DNA of 36,796 nt from Sinomonas humi (GTDB lineage Bacteria > Actinomycetota > Actinomycetes > Actinomycetales > Micrococcaceae). Shown one piece after another: positions 22,766 to 36,796 of this stretch. Each line of letters opens with the position of its first letter. Positions within the stretch are counted from its first letter, which is position 1. The stretch lies in the NCBI RefSeq assembly GCF_000802235.1, contig NZ_JTDL01000134.1, positions 1 through 36,796 of the forward strand. The letters are read 5' to 3'. A program made the translations under genes and the position numbers. The notes under the pieces are model-generated. The model searched no databases. It was not told the origin of the DNA and worked only from the letters and a program-made list of their open reading frames with translations.

Positions 22766-23565
22766 TGGCCGTACGCGTCGCTCTCGTTCAGCTGACCACC
22801 GGCCGCGACCTCGAGGCGAACCTCGACCTTGTCCGCAATGGGATCCGAGAGGCAGCGGCGCGCCGCGCCAGCGTCGTAGTCTTCCCCGAGGCGAGCATGC
22901 GAGCCTTCGGCAATTCCCTCGTCGACATCGCCGAGCCGCTCGACGGTCCGTGGGCGACGGCGGTGTGCGAGGCCGCGGACGAGGCGGGGGTCGTCGTCGT
23001 GGTCGGCATGTTCACGCCCGGGAACGCAGATACCGTGCGCAATACGCTGCTCGTCCACGGGCGGGGAGTCCACACCCACTACGACAAGATCCACCTTTAC
23101 GACGCGTTCGGGTTCAAGGAGTCGGACACGGTCACCGCGGGCACCGAGCCGTGCCAGTTCACTCTCGACGGCGTCACGTTCGGGCTCGGGACATGCTACG
23201 ACGTGCGGTTCCCGGCGCTTTTCACGGCCAACGCGGCGGCAGGAGCCCAGGTCCAGATCGTCTGTGCGTCGTGGGGCGCCGGGCCGGGTAAAGCCGAGCA
23301 ATGGGACCTGCTCGTGCGAGCCCGAGCCGCTGACACGACGAGCTACGTGCTCGCGTGCGGTCAGTCGGACCCGTCGGCAGCGGGAGTCGACGCCCGCCGT
23401 GGCGCCCCGACCGGCATAGGCCGGAGCGCCGTCGTCGGCCCATACGGCAAGCTGATCGAGCGCGCGGGGGATGGACCGGAAATCCTGTACGCAGACATCG
23501 ACCTCGGGGTGGTCGAGGAAGCGCGGCGAACGCTTCCTGTGCTCGCCAATCGCGTCACCCTCTAA
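22765..23565 (+). CDS. Carbon-nitrogen hydrolase (nitrilase superfamily)
   Basis: The 266-residue product has the complete catalytic triad of the superfamily: Glu42 in VVFPEAS, Lys108 in YDKIHLYD and Cys144 in LGTCYDVRFP. The fold hydrolyses amides or related C-N bonds. Members close to omega-amidase/Nit2 and deaminated-glutathione amidase share this short form, but the substrate cannot be set by motifs. The ATG shares one base with the rlmB TGA (TGATG), making it the fifth gene of the ispD operon. A housekeeping metabolite-repair job would fit the location but is inference. Confidence 0.88.
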   Translation: MAVRVALVQLTTGRDLEANLDLVRNGIREAAARRASVVVFPEASMRAFGNSLVDIAEPLDGPWATAVCEAADEAGVVVVVGMFTPGNADTVRNTLLVHGRGVHTHYDKIHLYDAFGFKESDTVTAGTEPCQFTLDGVTFGLGTCYDVRFPALFTANAAAGAQVQIVCASWGAGPGKAEQWDLLVRARAADTTSYVLACGQSDPSAAGVDARRGAPTGIGRSAVVGPYGKLIERAGDGPEILYADIDLGVVEEARRTLPVLANRVTL

Positions 23566-23598
23566 GTAACGCATCAACCCGTGGTCAACCGGCGACAG

Positions 23599-23604
23599 TA
23601 GGAT
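23599..23604 (+). promoter_or_regulatory. Putative -10 element of glgX
   Basis: TAGGAT ends 8 bases before the ATG at 23613. This again allows a leaderless or nearly leaderless transcript, with no room for a standard SD. Confidence 0.4.
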
Positions 23605-23612
23605 GGGGCGCG

Positions 23613-25771
<2,159 letters not shown>

Positions 25772-25775
<4 letters not shown>

Positions 25776-28390
25776 CCGGCGTTGACGACGAGGCCGAGTT
25801 CGGCCTTCGAGGCAAGGCCCTCGTGCTTGGGCATGACGCGCACGGTGTAGCCGAAGGGCCCCGAGTGCTCGATCAGGGCCTTGCCGCTGAACATGTAGCG
25901 CCCGTTGCCGAAGTTCTGCGCGGCTTCCAGCTCCTCGATCCGCGTGTGGGTGAGCTCGTCGCTCTCATCCACGCGCCCGTAGCCGAGTTCGACGAGGACA
26001 TCGCTCGGGTTGAGGACCCCTAGGTTGAGGTAGGCATTGACACGCAGGGTGTCGCCGATCTGCGGCACCTCCGAGAGCCCGCTCGAATCGATGTGCTCGA
26101 CGTGCACTTGGGACCAGTTCGTCCGAACGTGCTTGGTCCACGCCGCAAGCTCACGCGCCTGCCGGAAGTCGTCCGCCCGAACCGAACGGCCCGATGCCGC
26201 GGCCGGGGTGTACAGCTCCCGGACGTAGTCCCCGAGCATGCGGTCGGCGGAGACGGCCGGCCCGAGGTGCGAGAGCGTGTGCTTGATCATCGAGATCCAG
26301 CTCTTCGGCACCCCGTGCGGGCTGTCGATCGATGGCCCAGCGGCGCCTGCCGACTCCGCGCCTGCCGCACGATTGGGGACGCCGTAGAAGCGAGGGGCGA
26401 TCTGGTTCTCGAGGAGATCGTAGAGCGCCGCCGCCTCCACGTCGTCGCGCTCTTGGGCGCTCGCTTTGTCTCCTGCCGTCGGGATGGCCCAGCCGTTCTG
26501 CCCGTCGTACATCTCGTCCCACCAGCCGTCGAGCACGGAGAGGTTGAGCGAGCCGTTGATCGCAGCCTTCATGCCCGACGTTCCGCAGGCCTCGAGCGGG
26601 CGGAGCGGGTTGTTGAGCCAGACATCGCAGCCCGGGAACAGCGTGCGCGCCATCGCAATGTCGTAGTTCGGGAGGAATGCGATCCGGTGCCGGACCTCGG
26701 GATCGTCCGTGAACCGGACGAGGTCCTGGATCATTCGCTTGCCCGCTTCGTCGGCCGGGTGCGACTTGCCGGCGACGACGATCTGAACCGGGTGCTCAGG
26801 GTCGAGCAGGAGCCGCTTGAGCCGTGCGGGGTCGCGCAGCATGAGCGTGAGGCGCTTGTAGGTCGGCACGCGTCGGGCGAAGCCGATCGTGAGCACGTCG
26901 GGATCGAGCACGGTGTCGGTCCAGCGCAGCTCGGCATCCGCGGCGCCGCGCTTCTTCCACGAGGCGCGCAGCCGCCGTCGTACGTCCTCGATCAGACGGC
27001 CGCGGAGCTTCCGCCGCACCGCCCAGATCTCCTCGTCGCTCACGTTGAACACGAGATCCCAGCGGCCGCCCACGGCCGCACCCGGCTCCATGAGCTCCGC
27101 CATCGTCGTGACGCTCGGGTCGATCCACGTGGGAACATGCACGCCGTTCGTGACGGACGTGATCGGCACCTCCGAGTGGTCGAAGCCCGGCCAGAGCCCG
27201 GAGAACATGGCGCGGGAAACCGCGCCGTGGAGCTTCGCGACGCCGTTGGCACGCTGCGCGAGCCGGAGCCCCATGACGGCCATATTGAACACGGAGGGGT
27301 CTCCGCCGTCGTAGCTCTCGCGCCCCAGCTCGAGGATCTTGCCCGTCGGTACGTCGGGCGCGAGCCCAGCGTCGAAGAAGTACTTGATCTGGGCAGCGTC
27401 GAAGCGGTCGATGCCGGCGGCAACCGGGGTGTGGGTCGTGAAGACCGTCGACGCCCGGCCCGCGACGAGTGCCTCGTCCCAGCTCAGGGGATCCGCCGCG
27501 GACATGAGCTCCTGGATCCGTTCGATCCCGAGGAAGCCTGCGTGGCCCTCGTTCGTGTGGAAGACCTCGGGCGTGTGGCAGCCCGTGAGCCGCTCGAAGA
27601 TGCGGAGCGCCTTGACGCCGCCCATGCCGAGGAGGAGTTCCTGCTGGAGGCGGTGGTCGCCGCCGCCTCCGTAGAGCCGGTCGGTGATGGCGCGAGCGCC
27701 GTCGTCGTTGGTCGGCACGTTGGAGTCGAGCAGGAGCAGGGGGACGCGCCCGACGTCGGCACGCCACAGGTACGCGTGCAGCTTGCGGCCGTTGGGCAGC
27801 GGGAGAGTGACGACGGCGGGGGTGCCGTCCTCCTCCTTGACGAGCGTGAGGGGGAGGGCATCCGGGTCGAGGACCGGGTAGGTCTCCTGCTGCCAGGCGT
27901 CGCGTGAGAGGGCCTGCTTGAAGTAGCCGGACTGGTAGAGGAGGCCGACTCCGATGAGCGGCACGCCGAGGTCCGAGGCGGCCTTGAGGTGATCGCCCGC
28001 AAGGATGCCCAGGCCGCCCGAGTACTGGGGGAGCACCTCGGTGATGCCGAATTCGGGGGAGAAGTAGGCGACGCACCGCGGCGCCTCGGCGCCGAGCGTC
28101 TGGTACCAGCGCGGCTCCTCGAGGTAGCGGCGCAGGTCCTCGCCCGCCTCGGCGACGCGTTCGACGACGTCCGGGTCGGCGGCGAGGGCGACGAGCTTCT
28201 CGCGGGTGACCGAACCGAGGAACCCGATCGGATCGTGCCGGCTTTCGGCCCACAGATCCGGATCAAGGCTCTCGAAGAGATCCCGTGTGGGCTGATGCCA
28301 CGACCACCGCAGATTCGTGGCGAGGGACGCCAGAGCCTTGATGGGTTCGGGGAGGACTGTACGGACGGTGAACCGACGAATGGCCTTCAC
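25772..28390 (-). CDS. glgP: Alpha-glucan phosphorylase (GT35)
   Basis: The enzyme releases glucose 1-phosphate from glucan ends. The 872-residue product begins with the DUF3417 region typical of actinobacterial phosphorylases (LPEPIKALASLATNLRWSWHQPT, about residues 11-33). The GT35 core follows, with GGLGILAGDHLKAASDLG, HTNEGHAGF, and the PLP site EACGTSGMKAAINGSLNLS with Lys608. The GTG at 28390 is chosen over a longer frame because a TAGGGT -10 lies 7 bases upstream and homologues start at about this point. It is divergent from glgE and convergent with glgX, so both breakdown genes point at each other. The 3' end overlaps the glgX stop by 4 bases. Confidence 0.93.
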
Positions 28391-28397
28391 GTGCGCC

Positions 28398-28403
28398 ACC
28401 CTA
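28398..28403 (-). promoter_or_regulatory. Putative -10 element for leaderless glgP mRNA
   Basis: TAGGGT (complement of 28398-28403) ends 7 bases before the GTG at 28390. It sits in the 215-base divergent interval shared with glgE. Confidence 0.45.
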
Positions 28404-28605
28404 TCCGAGGGCGAGACGATGCTGAATACCATCAGGTAACGAGCCGGTGAATGACGTACGCAGGGCCTCCATGACCGACTCGCTTGCGCGTCACGCCCTT
28501 CGCTTTCGTCACCGGCTCCGGCTATCGTGGCGATGAATCGGCCCTCAGGGCTCGGCCTTCGCGGTTCGAACCCTGGGGCCGCGTCCGCCGCGAAAGGATT
28601 CCGCA

Positions 28606-30633
28606 GTGCCTGGACTCGAGACCGCGCTCCCCAACAACCTCCGCTTCGGGCGGTTCCCCATCACCGACGTCTCGCCGCTTGTCGAGGGCGGACGATTCCC
28701 GGCCAAGGCCCTTCCGGGCGAGCAGATCGTCGTCAGCGCGACAGCCACGCGGGAAGGGCACGACGCGCTCGGCGTCACGGCCGTCCTGTACAGCCCGCGC
28801 GGCGACGAGCAGCAGCGCGTCCGTCTTGAGTCGCTCGGCCCTGGGCTCGACCGCTGGGGCGGGGTGCTCACGCCAGGCGAGCCGGGCCTCTGGAGCTTCG
28901 CGATCGAGGCCTGGCACGATCGGTACGGCACCTGGCACCACAACGCGGACGTGAAGGTCGCGGCCGGGGTCGACGTCGAACTCATGCTCGCCGAGGGTGC
29001 GAAGCTTCTGGGCGAAGCGGCCGACGACGATGCTCGCCCCGCCGGCGACAGGGACGTCCTGCGGGCGGCCGCGGGGATTTTGGGCGATCAGAATCGGTCC
29101 GTCGAGGAGCGTCTCGCGGCGGGGGAAACTCCTCAGGTTCTGGGGGTCATCGAGCGCCAGCCGATCCGCGAGCTTGTGACCGAGACCGAGCATTTCCCGC
29201 TTCTCGTAGAGCGCGACCGGGCGGGTCGAGGTGCCTGGTACGAGTTCTTCCCGCGCTCCGAGGGCGCCGTCCGCAACCCTGAAACGGGTGAGTGGACCTC
29301 GGGGAACTTCCGGACCGCGGCCGAAAGGCTTCCGGGCGTTGCCGGGATGGGCTTCGACGTCATCTATCTCCCGCCGATCCACCCGATCGGGTTCGCGTTC
29401 CGCAAGGGGCCCAACAACTCCCTCAACGCCGGCCCGGGCGATCCCGGCTCGCCGTGGGCCATCGGCTCGTCCGAGGGCGGCCATGACGCCATCCACCCAG
29501 ACCTCGGGACCTTCGAGGACTTCGACGCGTTCGTGGCCCGCGCGAATGAGGTCGGCCTCGAGGTGGCCCTCGACCTCGCGCTCCAGGCCTCGCCTGATCA
29601 CCCTTGGGTCCAGTCCCACCCCGAGTGGTTCACCACCCGCGTGGACGGCTCGATTGCCTACGCCGAGAACCCGCCGAAGAAGTACCAGGACATCTATCCG
29701 CTCAACTTCGACAATGATCCCGAGGGCCTGAGCAAGGAAGTGCTGCGAATCGTCAACCTGTGGATCGACCACGGGGTGAGGATCTTCCGGGTGGACAACC
29801 CCCACACCAAGCCTGTGTGGTTCTGGGAATGGCTCATCGGCAAGGTCAACGAGGAACACGGCGACGTCGTTTTCCTCGCCGAGGCGTTCACGCGGCCAGC
29901 GATGATGAAGGCGCTCGGGCGTGCGGGATTCCAGCAGTCCTACAGCTATTTCACGTGGCGGAACACCCGTGAAGAGCTTGAGGAGTTCCTCACGATGATC
30001 TCGAAGGAGTGGGCTCCCTTCTACCGCCCGAACCTCTTCGTGAACACGCCGGACATCCTCACCGAGTACCTCCAGTACGGCGGCATTCCGGCGTTCAAGG
30101 CCCGGGCCGTGATCGCGTCGATGGCTGCGCCGTCGTGGGGCGTCTACGCGGGGTTCGAACTCTTCGAGCACGTTGCCCGGCCGGGGGCCGAGGAGTACAT
30201 CGACAACGAGAAGTACGAGTACAAGCAGCGCGACTGGGCGCGGGCCGAGGCCGAGGGCCGCTCCCTCGCTCCTTACATCACCCGGCTCAACGAGATCCGC
30301 CACGCGCATCCGGCGCTCGATGACCTTCAGAACCTGACGCTCCACTGGAGCACGGACGAGGCGACGCTCGTGTTCTCGAAGCACAAGGTCCTCGGGGACG
30401 GCACGAAGGACACGCTCATCGTCGTCGTCAACGTCGACCCCCACAGCGCCCGCGAATCGTCCGTGCACCTCGACCTCGAATCGCTCGATCTCGACCCCGA
30501 GCTCTTCGACAGTGAGGGGAAGTTCCGTGTTGACGACCTGATTTCGGGGCAAAGCTGGCAATGGGGAGTTGACAACTACGTCCGACTCGACGCCTACGTT
30601 GAGCCCGCGCACATTCTGCACGTGCGGCGCTAG
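28606..30633 (+). CDS. glgE: Alpha-1,4-glucan:maltose-1-phosphate maltosyltransferase
   Basis: The 675-residue GH13_3 enzyme adds maltose units from alpha-maltose 1-phosphate to a growing glucan. Its N-terminal half has the GlgE-specific helical and beta domains, including YEFFPRSEGA and the DVIYLPPIHPIG strand. Catalytic positions are nucleophile Asp397 in IFRVDNPHTKP, acid/base Glu426 in FLAEAFTRP and Asp483 in NTPDILTEYL, close to the Streptomyces enzyme (394, 423, 480 by recollection). The GTG follows AAAGGA (28593-28598). It starts the synthetic half of the locus and is followed after 99 bases by treS. A TATCGT at 28523-28528 may be its -10 element, giving a leader of about 70 bases. Confidence 0.95.
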   Translation: MPGLETALPNNLRFGRFPITDVSPLVEGGRFPAKALPGEQIVVSATATREGHDALGVTAVLYSPRGDEQQRVRLESLGPGLDRWGGVLTPGEPGLWSFAIEAWHDRYGTWHHNADVKVAAGVDVELMLAEGAKLLGEAADDDARPAGDRDVLRAAAGILGDQNRSVEERLAAGETPQVLGVIERQPIRELVTETEHFPLLVERDRAGRGAWYEFFPRSEGAVRNPETGEWTSGNFRTAAERLPGVAGMGFDVIYLPPIHPIGFAFRKGPNNSLNAGPGDPGSPWAIGSSEGGHDAIHPDLGTFEDFDAFVARANEVGLEVALDLALQASPDHPWVQSHPEWFTTRVDGSIAYAENPPKKYQDIYPLNFDNDPEGLSKEVLRIVNLWIDHGVRIFRVDNPHTKPVWFWEWLIGKVNEEHGDVVFLAEAFTRPAMMKALGRAGFQQSYSYFTWRNTREELEEFLTMISKEWAPFYRPNLFVNTPDILTEYLQYGGIPAFKARAVIASMAAPSWGVYAGFELFEHVARPGAEEYIDNEKYEYKQRDWARAEAEGRSLAPYITRLNEIRHAHPALDDLQNLTLHWSTDEATLVFSKHKVLGDGTKDTLIVVVNVDPHSARESSVHLDLESLDLDPELFDSEGKFRVDDLISGQSWQWGVDNYVRLDAYVEPAHILHVRR

Positions 30634-30732
30634 GCGGCGGGAGAGGGGCGCTAGCCGACCGCACTGGCTGGCGCTACCGTAGCTTCACTGCCCGGATACG
30701 TCGGCAAGACCGTCGGAAGGAGCAAACGCCAG

Positions 30733-32538
30733 ATGAACCTAGGCCAGCAGGCGAAGCAGAACTTCAATGTGAACGCGCCAGGTCTCCAACACGATCCGTA
30801 CTGGTATCGCAAGGCAGTGTTCTACGAGGTTCTCGTCAGGGCTTTTGCGGACGCGAACGGTGACGGATCCGGCGACATCCAAGGCCTCATCGACAAGCTC
30901 GACTACCTGCAATGGCTTGGGGTTGACTGCCTCTGGCTGCCACCGTTCTTCGAGTCCCCGCTCCGGGACGGCGGCTACGACGTCTCGGACTACGAGTCGG
31001 TCCTGCCGGAGTTCGGCTCGATCAGCGACTTCCAGCGACTCGTTGCCGAGGCACATGCCCGCGGTGTCCGCATCATCATCGACCTCCCGCTCAACCACAC
31101 CTCGGACCAGCACCGCTGGTTCCAGGAGTCCCGGCGGAACCCGGACGGCCCTTACGGCGACTTCTATGTGTGGAGCGACACCGACCAGAAGTACACCGAC
31201 GCCCGCATCATCTTCATCGACACTGAGGAGTCGAACTGGACGTTCGACCCGATCCGCCGGCAGTTCTTCTGGCACCGGTTCTTCAGCCACCAGCCGGACC
31301 TCAACTTCGAGAACCCGGCGGTCGTCGAGGCCGTCTTCGACGTCTTCAAGTTCTGGCTTGACCAAGGCGTGGACGGCATCCGGGCGGACGCGATTCCCTA
31401 CCTCTTCGAAGAGGAGGGCACCAATTGCGAGAACCTGCCCGCGACGCACGAGTTCCTCGTCAAGCTGCGAGCGATGATGGACCAGAAGTACCCGGGCCGC
31501 ATCATCATCGCCGAGGCGAACCAGCCGCCGCACGAGGTGGTCGAATACTTCGGCACAGAGGAAGCCCCGGAGTGCCACATGGCGTTCCACTTCCCGATCA
31601 TGCCGCGCCTCTACTACGCGCTCCGCGACCAGCGGGCCAAGCCGATCATCGACACCATGATCGACACGCCCGCAATCCCGCCGGGCGCCCAGTGGGGCAC
31701 CTTCCTGCGCAACCACGACGAGCTCACGCTTGAGATGGTGACCATCGAGGAACGCGAGGCGATGCTCGGCTGGTACGCATCGGACCCCCGAATGCGGGCG
31801 AACATCGGCATCCGGCGCAGACTGGCGCCGCTCCTCGACAACTCGCGGCACGAGATCGAGCTCATCAACGCGCTCCTGCTCTCGCTCCCCGGGAGCCCTT
31901 TCCTCTATTACGGGGATGAGGTGGGCATGGGTGACAACATCTGGCTCCAGGACCGTGATGCGGTCCGCACGCCCATGCAGTGGAACCCCGACAGGAACGC
32001 GGGCTTCTCGGTCGCGGATCCCGGCAAGCTCTACCTGCCGACCATCCAATCCCTCGTCTACAACTATTCGATGGCCAACGTGGAAGCCGAGATGGCCCAC
32101 TCGGGTTCGCTCCTGCGCTGGACGAGGAACATCCTCGGTGTACGCCGCGGGCACCCCGTGTTCGGGCTCGGCTCGTATCGCAACATCGACGCAGACGTCG
32201 AGCAGGTGCTCGCGTTCGTCCGCGAGCTCAAACCGAACGAGGTCCCCGGCGAGCCAGGGGAGACTGTGCTCTGCGTCTTCAATCTCTCTGGCCATCCCGT
32301 GGCTTCGCACCTCGATTTGGCGGGGTTCGAGGGGCGCGGTCTCCGTGACCTGTTCGGCGGCGAACCGTTCTCGCAGGTCGGCCCTGATGGGCGGTTCCAC
32401 GTGACGTTGGGCCCGCACGGCTACTACTGGCTCCGGATCCGAAGTGCAGGGAGCGTGCCGAGCAGCCCGTTTACTCAGGCGATGCCGATCATCACCGCAA
32501 GTGGTGCGGTCACCCATGAGGGGGAATTGGTCGAATGA
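30733..32538 (+). CDS. treS: Trehalose synthase (maltose alpha-D-glucosyltransferase)
   Basis: The 601-residue GH13_16 enzyme interconverts trehalose and maltose within one active site. It begins with the family's DPYWYRKAVFYEVLVRAFADANGDG-type opening (about 20-45). It carries nucleophile Asp219 in GIRADAIPYL, Glu261 in IIAEANQPP and Asp329 in RNHDEL, with GDEVGMGDNIWLQDRDAVRTPMQW near residue 400, also typical. The SD GGAAGGAG (30715-30722) lies 10 bases before the ATG. Its TGA overlaps the ATG of the maltokinase-GlgB fusion, so maltose made here can be passed on by a co-translated kinase. In many bacteria TreS itself is fused to the maltokinase; here it is separate. Confidence 0.95.
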   Translation: MNLGQQAKQNFNVNAPGLQHDPYWYRKAVFYEVLVRAFADANGDGSGDIQGLIDKLDYLQWLGVDCLWLPPFFESPLRDGGYDVSDYESVLPEFGSISDFQRLVAEAHARGVRIIIDLPLNHTSDQHRWFQESRRNPDGPYGDFYVWSDTDQKYTDARIIFIDTEESNWTFDPIRRQFFWHRFFSHQPDLNFENPAVVEAVFDVFKFWLDQGVDGIRADAIPYLFEEEGTNCENLPATHEFLVKLRAMMDQKYPGRIIIAEANQPPHEVVEYFGTEEAPECHMAFHFPIMPRLYYALRDQRAKPIIDTMIDTPAIPPGAQWGTFLRNHDELTLEMVTIEEREAMLGWYASDPRMRANIGIRRRLAPLLDNSRHEIELINALLLSLPGSPFLYYGDEVGMGDNIWLQDRDAVRTPMQWNPDRNAGFSVADPGKLYLPTIQSLVYNYSMANVEAEMAHSGSLLRWTRNILGVRRGHPVFGLGSYRNIDADVEQVLAFVRELKPNEVPGEPGETVLCVFNLSGHPVASHLDLAGFEGRGLRDLFGGEPFSQVGPDGRFHVTLGPHGYYWLRIRSAGSVPSSPFTQAMPIITASGAVTHEGELVE

Positions 32539-35500
32539 CGCACACCGAAGAAGAGCCCATCCTCACTCCGCCGCTCGCCGAGCTCCTCGAGCGCTGGCTT
32601 CCGTCCCAGCGCTGGTATCCGGCGAAGGGGCGCCAGGCAGAGTTCGCCAGGACGGGCAGTGTTCGCCTCGAAGACCCCGAGGGAAAGGTGGACATCGAGA
32701 TCCACCTCGTCAGGGTCAAGGCCGGCCGGCTCGAAGTCGTCCTGAACGTCCCCGTCACCTACCGAGACGAGCCGCTTCCGGACGCCGGGCACGCCCTCAT
32801 CGGGCGAAGCGAACATTCCGCGTTCGGCGCGCGCTGGATCTACGACGGCGTGCACGACCCCGCCTTCGTCAGGGCTCTTCTCGCCCTGATTTCCTCCGGG
32901 GGGCCGGCTAAGGCAGGGACGGCGTGGGGACGTACCAGCGGCGCTGGCCGCATTCCGGACGGGGAGATCTCGTGCCGCGTCCTCTCCAGCGAGCAGTCGA
33001 ACACGTCCATCATCGTGCGCTCCGCCGACGCCGAGGCCATGGTCAAGGTTCTCCGCCAGCCCGCCGACGGCCTCAATCCCGAGGTCGAGCTCGGCGCAGC
33101 TCTCGCCCGTGCCGGTGCGAGCGATGTGCCCGCGACCCTCGGCTGGGTCGACGGCGCATGGCGGCTCCACGGTGAGGGATCAGCGCGCGGCCAGCTCGCC
33201 GTCGTCCATGAATTCCTGCCCGGCGGGAAGGATCTGTGGCAGCTCGCGCTCGACGCCGCGGCGGCGGGTGAGGACTTCTCGGGGCATGCGCGGGGGCTCG
33301 GAGGGGCGACGGCGCGCGTCCACCAGGCGCTCGAGGCGAGCCTCGGCAGCGAGGAGCTGGACAACGACGCCGCAATCGAGTTTGTGGGCGTCCTCGCCGA
33401 TCGGCTCCGGACGGCGTGGCGGGAGGTACGCGAGAGCGTTGGGCTGCCCGATGCGGTGCTCGAAAGGCTCCTTGAGACGCTGGCCGGGGAGGCCGCGGGG
33501 CTGCGCGTCCAGCGGGTCCACGGTGACCTTCACCTTGGCCAGATCCTGTATTTCCCGGGGCATGAGACGCGCCCCTACGCAATCCTCGACTTCGAGGGCG
33601 AGCCATTGCGGCCTGTCGCAGAGCGGAGCCGCCCGGACGTTCCGCTGCGCGACGTCGTCGGCATGCTGCGATCGTTCGACTATGCCGCTGGCGCTGCGGA
33701 GCGCACTGTGCCGGCTGCCCGCGTCACCGAGGGTTGGGCGGACGCTGCCGGCCGGGCATTCTGGGAGGGCTACGCTGAGGTCTTGCCTCAGCCGGACCCC
33801 TTCGAGGGACCGCTCTTCGCGGCCCTCTGGCTCGACAAAGCGCTTTATGAGGTCGGGTACGAGGAACGGAACCGTCCGGCCTGGGCCGAGATCCCGCTGC
33901 GCGCGGTCCGCACTGCGCTCGGCGCGTACGTTCCCGGAGGCGAGCACGCTGTGCCCCTCGATTCAGACAGACTTGCAGAAGCGACGGCGGCAAGCCGCGC
34001 AGGAGAGGAGAGTGACGTGTCAGAGCACACCGAGCAGGAGGGTGCGGCCCTGGGGAGGGTGGATTCCATCGCCCCGATTCCCGTCCCCCAGGATGTACTG
34101 AGCCGCGTCGCGTCCGGATCGTTCCACGCACCCCACGCCGTCCTCGGCGCGCATCTCGGCGAAGACGGAACGATCACCATCCGAACGCTCAAGCACCTCG
34201 CGACCGGAGTCACAGCGATCACTCCCGAGGGCAGGATTCCTCTGCACCACGAGTCGCACGGGGTCTGGGTCGTCGTACTTCCGCCCAGGGAAGACGGCGG
34301 CGTGCCCGACTATCGGCTCGAGGTCGAGTACGGGGACGGACACGTGGTGAGCGTCGACGACCCGTACCGCTTCATGCCGACGCTCGGCGAGCTGGACCTG
34401 TACCTGATCGGAGAGGGCCGGCACGAGCAGCTGTGGAAGGCACTGGGCGCTCGCGTCCAGCACTTCCACTCCGTGATGGGGGACATCGAGGGAACGGCGT
34501 TCTCCGTCTGGGCCCCGAATGCCCAAGCCGTGCAGGTGAAGGGCGATTTCAACGGCTGGGACGGGCGCGAGCACGCGATGCGCAGCCTCGGCTCCTCCGG
34601 CGTCTGGGAGATCTTCATCCCGGGCGTTGTAGCAGGGGCGTGCTACAAGTTCGGCATCCTTACGAAGTCGGGCCACTGGATCGAGCGCGCGGATCCCATG
34701 GCGTTCGGAACCGAGGTTCCGCCCCGGACGGCGTCTCGGGTTGTCGAGTCGCGGTACGCGTTCAAGGACGAAGAGTGGATGCGGGCGCGCGCCGTCCGCG
34801 ACCCCCACAACCTGCCCATGAGCGTCTACGAGGTGCATCTCGGCTCGTGGCGGCCGGGGCTCAGCTATCGCGAACTCGCGACGGAACTTGTCGCGTACGT
34901 CAAGGAAATGGGCTTCACCCACGTCGAGTTCATGCCCGTCGCCGAGCACCCGTTCGGCGGCTCGTGGGGCTATCAGGTCACGTCCTACTATGCCCCGACT
35001 TCGCGATTCGGCCATCCGAACGACTTCCGGTATCTCGTCGACCAACTCCACCAGGCCGGGATCGGCGTGATCGTGGACTGGGTGCCCGCTCACTTCCCGA
35101 AAGATGAATGGGCGCTCGCCCGCTTCGACGGCGAACCACTGTACGAGCACGCGGACCCGATGCAGGGCGAGCACCCCGACTGGGGAACGTACATCTTCAA
35201 CTTCGGCCGCACTGAGGTTCGTAACTTCCTCGTGGCCAATGCCCTGTTCTGGTTCGAGGAGTATCACATCGACGGTCTCCGCGTGGATGCCGTCGCCTCG
35301 ATGCTCTACCTCGACTACTCCCGCAAGGAAGGGCAGTGGAGGCCCAACCAGTTCGGCGGCCGCGAGAACCTCGAGGCGATCTCCTTCCTCCAGGAGGCGA
35401 ACGCCACTGCGTACAAGCGGAACCCCGGCATCGTCATGATCGCCGAAGAGTCCACCGCCTTCCCTGGCGTCACCAAGCCGACGTCGATGAACGGCCTCGG

Positions 35501-36257
35501 CTTCGGGCTCAAATGGAACATGGGGTGGATGCACGATTCCCTCCAGTACATGCACGAGAACCCGATCAACCGCCGCTGGCACCACAACCAGATCACGTTC
35601 TCGATCATGTACGCGTTCAGCGAGAACTTCCTGCTCCCGATCAGCCATGACGAGGTGGTCCACGGCAAGGGGTCGATGCTGCGAAAGATGCCGGGGGACC
35701 GGTGGCAGCAGCTCGCGAACCTGCGGGCCTTCTACGCCTACCAGTGGGCGCACCCAGGCAAGCAGCTCATCTTCATGGGCTGCGAGTTCGGGCAGGAGGG
35801 GGAGTGGAATCAGGAGCATGGCCTCGACTGGTGGCTCGCTGATACTGAACCCCACAAGGGACTTCAGCGGCTGATCCGGGATCTCAATGAGGTGTACAGC
35901 GAGACGCCTGCGCTCTACACCCAGGACAACGACCCGGCCGGATTCGAGTGGATCCGCGGAGACGACGGGGATCACAACGTCGTCTCGTTCATTCGTTGGT
36001 CGGCTGACGGCCAGCCGCTCGTCTGCATTGTGAACTTCGCCGGAAACCCGCACTTGGACTACACGGCCGGCGTCCCCTTGAGCGGCGCGTGGCGGGAGGT
36101 CGTGAACACCGACGCCACCGAGTACGGCGGATCGGGCGTCACCAACGGTGGGCTCGTGATGGCTGAGGCGCGCGAATGGGACGGAAAGCCCGCCGCCGTG
36201 ACGCTCACCCTGCCGCCGCTGGGCGCCGTGTACCTCGTGCCAGATTCTCAGGAGTGA
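32535..36257 (+). CDS. glgB: Fused maltokinase (Pep2/Mak) and 1,4-alpha-glucan branching enzyme GlgB
   Basis: This single 1240-residue frame has two complete enzymes. Residues 1-494 are a maltokinase: N-cap domain (LLERWLPSQRWYPAKGR at 12-28), then a kinase fold with HGDLHLGQ (catalytic Asp331) and ILDFEGEP (metal Asp352), which phosphorylates maltose to maltose 1-phosphate. Residues 495-1240 are GlgB: N-terminal beta modules starting near PHAVLGAHL, CBM48 (VWAPNAQAVQVKGDFNGWDGR), and a GH13 barrel with nucleophile Asp918 in GLRVDAV, Glu971 in IAEES and SHDEVVHGKGSM, which makes alpha-1,6 branches. No stop separates them, and both halves have normal length with all catalytic residues. The ATG overlaps the treS stop. 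An internal SD and GTG mark the junction (34001-34019). Confidence 0.93.
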   Translation: MTHTEEEPILTPPLAELLERWLPSQRWYPAKGRQAEFARTGSVRLEDPEGKVDIEIHLVRVKAGRLEVVLNVPVTYRDEPLPDAGHALIGRSEHSAFGARWIYDGVHDPAFVRALLALISSGGPAKAGTAWGRTSGAGRIPDGEISCRVLSSEQSNTSIIVRSADAEAMVKVLRQPADGLNPEVELGAALARAGASDVPATLGWVDGAWRLHGEGSARGQLAVVHEFLPGGKDLWQLALDAAAAGEDFSGHARGLGGATARVHQALEASLGSEELDNDAAIEFVGVLADRLRTAWREVRESVGLPDAVLERLLETLAGEAAGLRVQRVHGDLHLGQILYFPGHETRPYAILDFEGEPLRPVAERSRPDVPLRDVVGMLRSFDYAAGAAERTVPAARVTEGWADAAGRAFWEGYAEVLPQPDPFEGPLFAALWLDKALYEVGYEERNRPAWAEIPLRAVRTALGAYVPGGEHAVPLDSDRLAEATAASRAGEESDVSEHTEQEGAALGRVDSIAPIPVPQDVLSRVASGSFHAPHAVLGAHLGEDGTITIRTLKHLATGVTAITPEGRIPLHHESHGVWVVVLPPREDGGVPDYRLEVEYGDGHVVSVDDPYRFMPTLGELDLYLIGEGRHEQLWKALGARVQHFHSVMGDIEGTAFSVWAPNAQAVQVKGDFNGWDGREHAMRSLGSSGVWEIFIPGVVAGACYKFGILTKSGHWIERADPMAFGTEVPPRTASRVVESRYAFKDEEWMRARAVRDPHNLPMSVYEVHLGSWRPGLSYRELATELVAYVKEMGFTHVEFMPVAEHPFGGSWGYQVTSYYAPTSRFGHPNDFRYLVDQLHQAGIGVIVDWVPAHFPKDEWALARFDGEPLYEHADPMQGEHPDWGTYIFNFGRTEVRNFLVANALFWFEEYHIDGLRVDAVASMLYLDYSRKEGQWRPNQFGGRENLEAISFLQEANATAYKRNPGIVMIAEESTAFPGVTKPTSMNGLGFGLKWNMGWMHDSLQYMHENPINRRWHHNQITFSIMYAFSENFLLPISHDEVVHGKGSMLRKMPGDRWQQLANLRAFYAYQWAHPGKQLIFMGCEFGQEGEWNQEHGLDWWLADTEPHKGLQRLIRDLNEVYSETPALYTQDNDPAGFEWIRGDDGDHNVVSFIRWSADGQPLVCIVNFAGNPHLDYTAGVPLSGAWREVVNTDATEYGGSGVTNGGLVMAEAREWDGKPAAVTLTLPPLGAVYLVPDSQE
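34001..34019 (+). promoter_or_regulatory. Internal ribosome binding site and in-frame GTG at the maltokinase-GlgB junction
   Basis: AGGAGAGGAG at 34001-34010 lies 6 bases before an in-frame GTG at 34017, exactly between the two enzyme domains. Starting there would yield a free 746-residue GlgB of normal length. No other site inside the frame combines such an SD with a domain boundary as far as I can see. Confidence 0.6.
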
Positions 36258-36267
36258 AGGACCGGCG

Positions 36268-36298
36268 CGTGAGTTGAGCGACTGACGTGAGTTGAGCG
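36268..36298. repeat. Two copies of a 13-base direct repeat after glgB
   Basis: CGTGAGTTGAGCG occurs at 36268-36280 and 36286-36298, 18 bases apart start to start. It lies between the glgB stop and its downstream hairpin. It could be chance, a protein site or part of a terminator region. Confidence 0.7.
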
Positions 36299-36326
36299 CG
36301 GGCGGCAGAGGTTCGCGAAGCAGAAG

Positions 36327-36362
36327 GGGAGGGCCCGGAATCCACGGATTCCGGGCCCTCCC
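36327..36362 (+). terminator. Hairpin after glgB, before the rrn promoters
   Basis: GGGAGGGCCCGGAATCC (36327-36343) pairs with GGATTCCGGGCCCTCCC (36346-36362), giving a 16-base-pair stem once a 4-base loop is allowed. There is no T-run. Its place directly upstream of the rrn promoter suggests it stops glucan-operon transcripts. Confidence 0.75.
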
Positions 36363-36380
36363 GCTGTGCTGGCTGGACGG

Positions 36381-36410
36381 TTGGCACTCGCGCTGGAGGG
36401 GTGGTATAGT
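36381..36410 (+). promoter_or_regulatory. rrn promoter P1
   Basis: TTGGCA (36381-36386) and TATAGT (36405-36410) are 18 bases apart, a good housekeeping-sigma match. The start would lie near 36418, about 325 bases before the 16S gene. Confidence 0.65.
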
Positions 36411-36488
36411 CATATCCCGCGCCACCGAGAACGGCGGCGCGAAGACTTCTTGTTCAACACCACCAAGCCCGCTGGCCGAACGGCCGGT

Positions 36489-36517
36489 TTGACTCGGTGA
36501 GGCAGAACAGGTAGGTT
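36489..36517 (+). promoter_or_regulatory. rrn promoter P2
   Basis: TTGACT (36489-36494) and TAGGTT (36512-36517) are separated by exactly 17 bases. This is the closest match to the -35/-10 consensus in the window and lies about 225 bases before the 16S gene. Confidence 0.72.
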
Positions 36518-36571
36518 AGGAAAGTTGCTTCGGAGCGGGCCAGAGTGTTCTGGTGGGGTTCCGGAGGGGCC

Positions 36572-36598
36572 TGTTGTTTGAGAACTCAATAGTGTGCC
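36572..36598 (+). promoter_or_regulatory. rRNA leader boxA-type antitermination element
   Basis: The stretch containing TGTTGTTTGAGAACTCAA is the boxA-like element found in actinobacterial rRNA leaders, where Nus factors bind to prevent early termination. It is followed by an AGTGTGCC segment that I recall as conserved in mycobacterial leaders. Between it and the 16S gene are T-rich tracts (36617-36624 and 36721-36743) likely to lie in the processing region. Confidence 0.7.
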
Positions 36599-36741
36599 AT
36601 GTTTGATTCGATGCCATTTTTTTTGATTGGCTGATGCTGTTCTGCGCGCACCCCCGTGTGTGTGGGATGGTTTTGGCTGGGGTCGGGTTTCTGGTGCGTC
36701 TTTTCCGGGCGTGCTGGTTTCCTTTTTGTTTTTCGTTTTTT

Positions 36742-36796
<55 letters not shown>

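Follow-up and report, generated by a model that had tools for sequence, protein, structure and literature searches.

A Sinomonas humi maltokinase-GlgB fusion gene with a conserved putative internal start for free GlgB

The fused gene and its neighbours

The window is a stretch of 36,796 nucleotides of DNA from the soil bacterium Sinomonas humi. It carries an open reading frame in which maltokinase (mak) and branching-enzyme (glgB) genes are joined, together with other glucan genes:

23355–25775, plus strand: glgX debranching enzyme (TIGR02100, above cut-off)
25772–28432, minus strand: alpha-glucan phosphorylase of the GlgP type (TIGR02094), divergent from glgE
28606–30633, plus strand: glgE (domains GlgE_dom_N_S and GLGE_C)
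30733–32538, plus strand: treS, a separate gene whose own TGA overlaps the mak ATG as ATGA
32535–36257, plus strand: mak-glgB fusion ORF with an ATG start, 1240 aa, assigned by domains and solved relatives
32535–33929, plus strand: maltokinase half, residues 1–465, with HGDLHLGQ at 329 and DFEGEPL at 352, aligned to PDB 4u94
33930–34079, plus strand: linker, poorly conserved in the genus except for the Shine-Dalgarno (SD)/start block

The first-pass annotation had read this frame as a complete maltokinase joined to a complete GlgB, and the domains and the solved structures agree with it. The whole product is 136.9 kDa. Along it, Pfam places Mak_N_cap at residues 21–108, GlgB_N at 519–611, CBM_48 at 637–723, alpha-amylase from residue 784 and Alpha-amylase_C at 1139–1236, with the maltokinase cap domain PF18085 scoring 102.8 bits against a cut-off of 22. 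Maltokinase 4u94 is aligned over residues 20–463, with HGDLHLGQ and DFEG in register, and M. tuberculosis GlgB 3k1d over residues 516–1236, with GLRVDA, IAEES and SHDEV in register. Since each half aligns with a solved structure along its length, both are regarded as complete. The N-terminal half is a predicted maltokinase (Mak/Pep2), by its N-terminal cap and its full-length match to solved maltokinases, and the GlgB half has the composition of a GH13 branching enzyme, namely GlgB_N, CBM48, a GH13 barrel and a C-terminal domain. Both halves have their active-site motifs in place, with the catalytic D/E/D in the GlgB half.

The architecture is the same as that of NCBIfam NF011293 (PRK14705, 1224 positions), whose positions 3–1222 match residues 7–1236 at 1887.6 bits, a score below the curated cut-off of 2376 bits that defines membership. 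The family is named ‘1,4-alpha-glucan branching enzyme’, a name that gives no hint of the maltokinase or of an internal start. Because this model matches the protein end to end, though below cut-off, the fusion as such is not new. An assembly or sequencing error as its source is ruled out, as all 15 genomes of the window's genus in the relatives search, the window's included, are fused.

TreS and the maltokinase are not one polypeptide, since treS ends at 32538 and its frame differs from that of mak. A TreS-Mak-GlgB triple fusion, suggested by open frames of 1699–1930 aa in three other genomes (G001, G005 and G028), was rejected for the same kind of reason, treS and mak being in different frames there (L038, L042 and L060). 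An open frame of 1951 aa is also present in G094. Apart from the fused gene, the S. humi genome shows no full-length GlgB match; GlgC and GlgM/GlgA-type genes are present in it as well. No Rfam element reaches its gathering score in positions 24000–36796.

The internal Shine-Dalgarno sequence and start codon

Four further features lie at or downstream of the junction:

34001–34010, plus strand: internal SD sequence AGGAGAGGAG, with codons GGA GAG GAG at 34002–34010
34013–34015, plus strand: out-of-frame TGA (compare the separate-gene loci L138 and L143)
34017–34019, plus strand: putative internal start GTG, residue 495; 14 of 15 congeners have GTG here and one has ATG
34017–36257, plus strand: predicted free GlgB, 746 aa, 83.8 kDa, spanning the whole match to M. 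tuberculosis GlgB 3k1d

The SD had been reported 6 bases before an in-frame GTG, and it is found exactly so, the six bases between AGGAGAGGAG and GTG 34017 being AGTGAC. One base separates the TGA at 34013 from this GTG, which is the spacing between TGA and ATG in the species of genus g45 whose genes are separate, and by this comparison the TGA is probably a relic of the former maltokinase stop. The SD pairing energy at GTG 34017 is −13.5 kcal/mol. The base-rate sample was about 437 kb of the same genome (window included, 232 gene-like ORFs), with genes and starts picked by a rule of our own rather than from annotation. Of the 2,987 further ATG/GTG codons that lie in frame inside these ORFs, one reaches −13 and none has an SD as strong as −13.5. 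Among the best start candidates of 226 genes in this sample, 1.3% lie at −13.4 or stronger. The competing start in the linker of the window, GTG 33951, scores −9.9. Weak local RNA folding was sought at the site, and folding there is ordinary, with a genus mean of −29.1 versus −29.3 for internal codons.

Within the genus, the block GGA-GAG-GAG-nnn-nAC-GTG/ATG is kept in all 15 congeners (window's included) while the surrounding linker is scrambled; linker length is 144–300 nt and the alignment is poor outside the block. Identity is 74–97% over full-length matches and falls as low as 59% in maltokinase pieces. Codon by codon, the site columns hold GGA in 13 congeners, GGG in one and CGA in one, then GAG in 15, GAG in 15, and GTG in 14 with ATG in one. 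GGA makes up 8.9% of the glycine codons in these genes, and 13 of the 14 glycines at the site. Across 92 conserved Gly columns the runner-up has 7 GGA compared with 13 of 15 at the site, and among 56 conserved Val columns only that of the site is GTG/ATG in every row. Fifteen columns are always ATG, GTG or TTG; the mean SD energy is −14.0 at the site and −5.7 at the next best. In 13 of the 15 congeners the codon next to the start has A as its third base, a feature of 6% of codons overall and 12% of second codons in the sampled genome DNA. These rows are related, and the column comparisons share one tree instead of counting independent events. A start codon with an SD at usable spacing, both kept in relatives, is present in all 15 congeners.

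The fusion and its linker in related genomes

The distribution was read from 143 loci, that is, the window, 40 of the 57 other genomes of a first relatives search, and 102 further genomes. The 17 left out of the first search are G016, G023–G026, G034, G035, G038, G040, G042–G045, G049, G050, G054 and G055; a wider search matched 150 genomes, of which 23 were left out (11 of g22, 4 of g44, 2 of g3, 1 of g12, G164 and 4 of g14). The fused share in the order is overstated, because several of the 17 left out of the first search have mak and glgB far apart. A locus was called fused when one open frame crosses the junction with at least 300 nt of mak. By this rule 110 loci are joined (including L150, in which a stop lies in that frame farther up in mak), 18 are separate with mak upstream, and 15 have no mak in the stretch. 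The separate class contains 15 clear cases, as the linker has N runs in L133 and L151 and the frame is broken in L144. Joined copies occur in 20 genera, 107 of the 110 belong to the window's family, and their linkers range from 39 to 519 nt. Among 80 named loci, which are not independent because some are probably the same genomes as in this set, the two genes are fused in 17 and separate in 25, and the other 38 have no mak in the stretch; the fused ones comprise 14 from Arthrobacter, Pseudarthrobacter or Paenarthrobacter and one each from Pseudokineococcus, Ornithinimicrobium and Leekyejoonella.

The fusion is therefore old, widespread and already a database family, which corrects the earlier reading of it. 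On a quick GlgB tree with midpoint root, in which unresolved rows were counted as split, the fused label changes at least 11 times, 10 of these changes being forced by well-supported branches. A single early fusion within the family, followed by several separations, is consistent with this pattern; repeated fusion may be an alternative history.

Conservation of the SD and GTG among fused homologues had been proposed as a check, and beyond the 15 congeners a site at the homologous place is found in 7 further genera of 12. These are the genera with at least three fused members, in which alignment columns holding a possible start in all rows (all but one in genera with at least 8 members) were ranked by mean SD energy. 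The top-ranked start column falls in the linker in 8 of the 12 (g1, g4, g9, g45, g49, g53 and, with only 3 rows apiece, g15 and g17), seven besides the window's. The linker column of g7 ranks 18th of 23, and in g6, g47 and g52 no start-codon column is kept in the linker in this ranking. The codon phase of the SD and the encoded peptide vary among genera, and since both differ, what the genera have in common is a DNA signal and not a peptide. Of the 110 joined linkers, 66 contain an in-frame start at −8 or stronger, each linker offering 3.7 candidates on average; 6.5% of the 7,149 candidate starts in gene bodies are this strong.

The genus g45 contains both arrangements. In G059 and G173 the genes are separate, and the mak TGA stands four bases before the glgB ATG, with C between them and AGGAAAGTGGTGT upstream of the ATG. 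In all eight fused g45 congeners the ATG is in the mak frame, preceded by a closely similar stretch (mostly AAGGGAAAG...). With separate genes, glgB requires its own start, and in both species this ATG is the best-scoring one: −10.8 in G173 versus −5.9 or weaker for other starts in the glgB frame, and −10.2 in G059 versus −7.7 or weaker, although an upstream ATG at −7.7 could also start glgB in G059. On the GlgB tree G059 sits inside a fused clade. In g19, the genes overlap as ATGA in 4 of 4 loci, with an SD before the ATG.

What kind of change joined the two frames? The first-pass annotation pictured overlapping genes that lost the stop and kept the second ribosome binding site. A kept site is supported by the conservation, by the separate loci of g45 and by the TGA at 34013; as for the lost stop, comparison of the linkers and the separate-gene loci seems to indicate that the frames were joined by small indels, which are likelier than a stop mutation.

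The remaining results weigh against a kept internal start, or limit where it can be argued. Synonymous recoding of the linker with the peptide fixed gives p ≤ 0.05 in 19 of the 110 linkers, 12 of them among the 15 of the window's genus; by genus, the median p is ≤ 0.05 in 2 of 20, and Fisher's combination, with one gene drawn at random from each genus, has a median p of 0.028. Codon-order shuffles are significant in 26 of the 110 linkers, and again in 12 of 15 in the window's genus. An SD and start as good often arise by chance in recoding, so single sequences outside the genus are no proof of selection, and the case there rests on conservation. In g7 the site is largely lost, 7 of the 9 joined loci lacking any linker start stronger than −6, and each of these seven genomes gives a single GlgB match at the threshold applied; therefore the fused GlgB must suffice in g7. 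In three of the 17 named fused loci (L187, L194 and L200) the best linker start is no stronger than −3.1, and in L193 it stands at −5.5. Another linker GTG scores −13.6 in L046, and another GTG outscores the conserved ATG in 2 of the 8 fused g45 loci.

Two proteins from one frame

We consider it probable that the gene makes two proteins from one frame, and that selection has preserved the original glgB start as the internal site since the two genes were joined. Dual translation, with initiation at GTG 34017, is something we infer, as are the GlgB-to-maltokinase ratio and the purpose; the comparisons above support the first of these well. Translation from ATG 32535, which the ATGA overlap probably couples to that of treS, would yield the 137-kDa maltokinase-GlgB, and other ribosomes would load on AGGAGAGGAG and begin at GTG 34017, giving an 84-kDa free GlgB. 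A surplus of free GlgB, as originally proposed, could follow from such a scheme. Its likely use would be to tune the ratio of GlgB to maltokinase and to supply GlgB that is not bound to the TreS-maltokinase complex. As the maltokinase binds TreS in mycobacteria, according to PMC6509496, the fusion would put GlgB at the TreS-maltokinase complex and leave the short form free. The free GlgB could also serve the GlgC plus GlgM/GlgA route, because the genome offers no other full-length GlgB match.

It is conceivable, though unlikely, that the SD and GTG are simply left over from a separate glgB and no longer initiate, the fusion protein being the only product. The location of the site, where the old start would be, suits this account, as do the g7 loci that lost the site yet kept the fusion; but a relic would decay at synonymous sites, and the genus conservation counts against it, with a block kept in 15 of 15 amid a scrambled linker, in which 13 rows use a rare glycine codon and every row has a start codon. 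Selection might also act on something other than initiation. SD-like sequences in coding regions have been proposed to slow ribosomes, and a purine block at the domain border, as here, could let the maltokinase fold first without any internal start. Such a pause needs no start codon 6 bases downstream, yet GTG or ATG stands there in every congener, in the sole such Val column of 56, and the single replacement of GTG is ATG, again a start; we therefore hold this account to be very improbable. Least probable of all, to our mind, is that the peptide GEExDV is selected, for instance as a cleavage or binding site, with a protease freeing GlgB and the SD a by-product. The peptide is indeed largely conserved in the genus, but it does not require GGA, which encodes 13 of 14 glycines at the site against 8.9% overall, and other genera place the SD in other codon phases and encode other peptides.

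There are precedents both for fused GlgE-pathway enzymes and for internal starts. TreS-maltokinase (TreS-Mak/TreS-Pep2) fusions likewise join neighbouring steps of the pathway, as described in PMC11046441, PMC7935935 and PMC6509496, whereas here TreS is separate and the maltokinase is joined at its other end to GlgB. In the GlgA-GlgB of Waddlia a glucan-synthesis enzyme likewise sits at the GlgB N-terminus (PMC7935935); there the GlgB half is inactive and a second GlgB exists, in contrast to the single full-length match here. That an N-terminal fusion left the Waddlia GlgB inactive would favour a free form, and were the same true of the present fusion, branching would fall to the short form; g7 argues that a fused GlgB can work. 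One frame with a second start that yields a C-terminal form is described for infB (IF2), clpA and cas8/Cas11 (PMC13245402 and PMC11899642). Unlike these, the present gene encodes two complete enzymes, each with a gene of its own in relatives, and its second start seems to be the one that glgB had before the fusion. No paper on a maltokinase-GlgB fusion was found in the open-licence literature. What is new, as judged from the alignments, is a fusion in whose linker the best conserved feature, across several genera, appears to be the retained start of the second gene.

A broader picture can be offered tentatively, and we would not yet call it likely. In it, mak and glgB switch between fused and separate states by small indels around one fixed SD/start module, the linker DNA being both peptide and ribosome binding site, and GlgB may be divided in each cell between a pool carried by the TreS-maltokinase complex, close to where maltose 1-phosphate arises, and a free pool that serves the GlgC-GlgM/GlgA route.

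If the preferred reading of a kept internal start is true, annotation of the gene with a single product misses a second protein, with a bearing on the balance of branching versus chain growth in the GlgE pathway. Natural controls exist in the fused genera with the site, in fused g7, mostly without it, and in the separate-gene g45 congeners. Gene fusions are commonly taken as a sign of one-to-one cooperation between two proteins; if the old start of the second gene is kept under selection, the one-to-one reading would be wrong here, and perhaps for other fused enzymes.

Linkers lacking a strong internal start

In a fused genus (g7), the loci L099, L101, L103 and L105–L108 carry no in-frame start in the linker between the maltokinase and GlgB halves with a Shine-Dalgarno (SD) pairing energy better than −6 kcal/mol. 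These fused genes without a good linker start are a natural contrast to the genus of the window. In a genus that is otherwise fused, the frame is broken in the linker between mak and glgB at one locus (L144, genome G066), where a good glgB start is also absent; this break is either genuine or a sequence error. A second locus of the same genus (L150, genome G161) has an in-frame stop farther up in mak.

Downstream flank and other matches

The stretches following glgB at four loci were scanned for rRNA genes.

Post-glgB stretches scanned for rRNA
window, 36258–36796
locus L014, 5745–6783
locus L026, 4222–5181
locus L009, 1–969

In the three congeners of this set a 16S rRNA gene starts about 0.5 kb 3′ of glgB, and the window's contig ends 539 bases past glgB. 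The rRNA repeat is probably where this contig breaks off, like many draft contigs of the relatives.

Among other matches to the fusion protein, a Pseudarthrobacter fusion (L180, NZ_JARVSF010000053.1) is just 63% identical to that of the window. Many relatives also carry short frames of ~180–250 aa, located outside the glg cluster (for example L003, G000:C155:147182-147400), whose similarity to the query is confined to its maltokinase cap. A CG0192-related family also matches this cap, and the short frames perhaps belong to it.

Annotation and separate genes

The NCBIfam model NF011293 spans 1224 positions and includes the whole maltokinase, yet it is named only as a 1,4-alpha-glucan branching enzyme; annotation based on it may therefore conceal the kinase half.

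The mak and glgB genes are separate at loci of Lentzea (L199), Umezawaea (L197) and Amycolatopsis (L212). Their glgB SDs, GGAGGAGAGTAA, AGGAGGCGAGTAA and AGGAGGCGAACAA, respectively, each ahead of a GTG, resemble the SD–GTG block of the window. Separate genes with such SDs perhaps represent the older arrangement.
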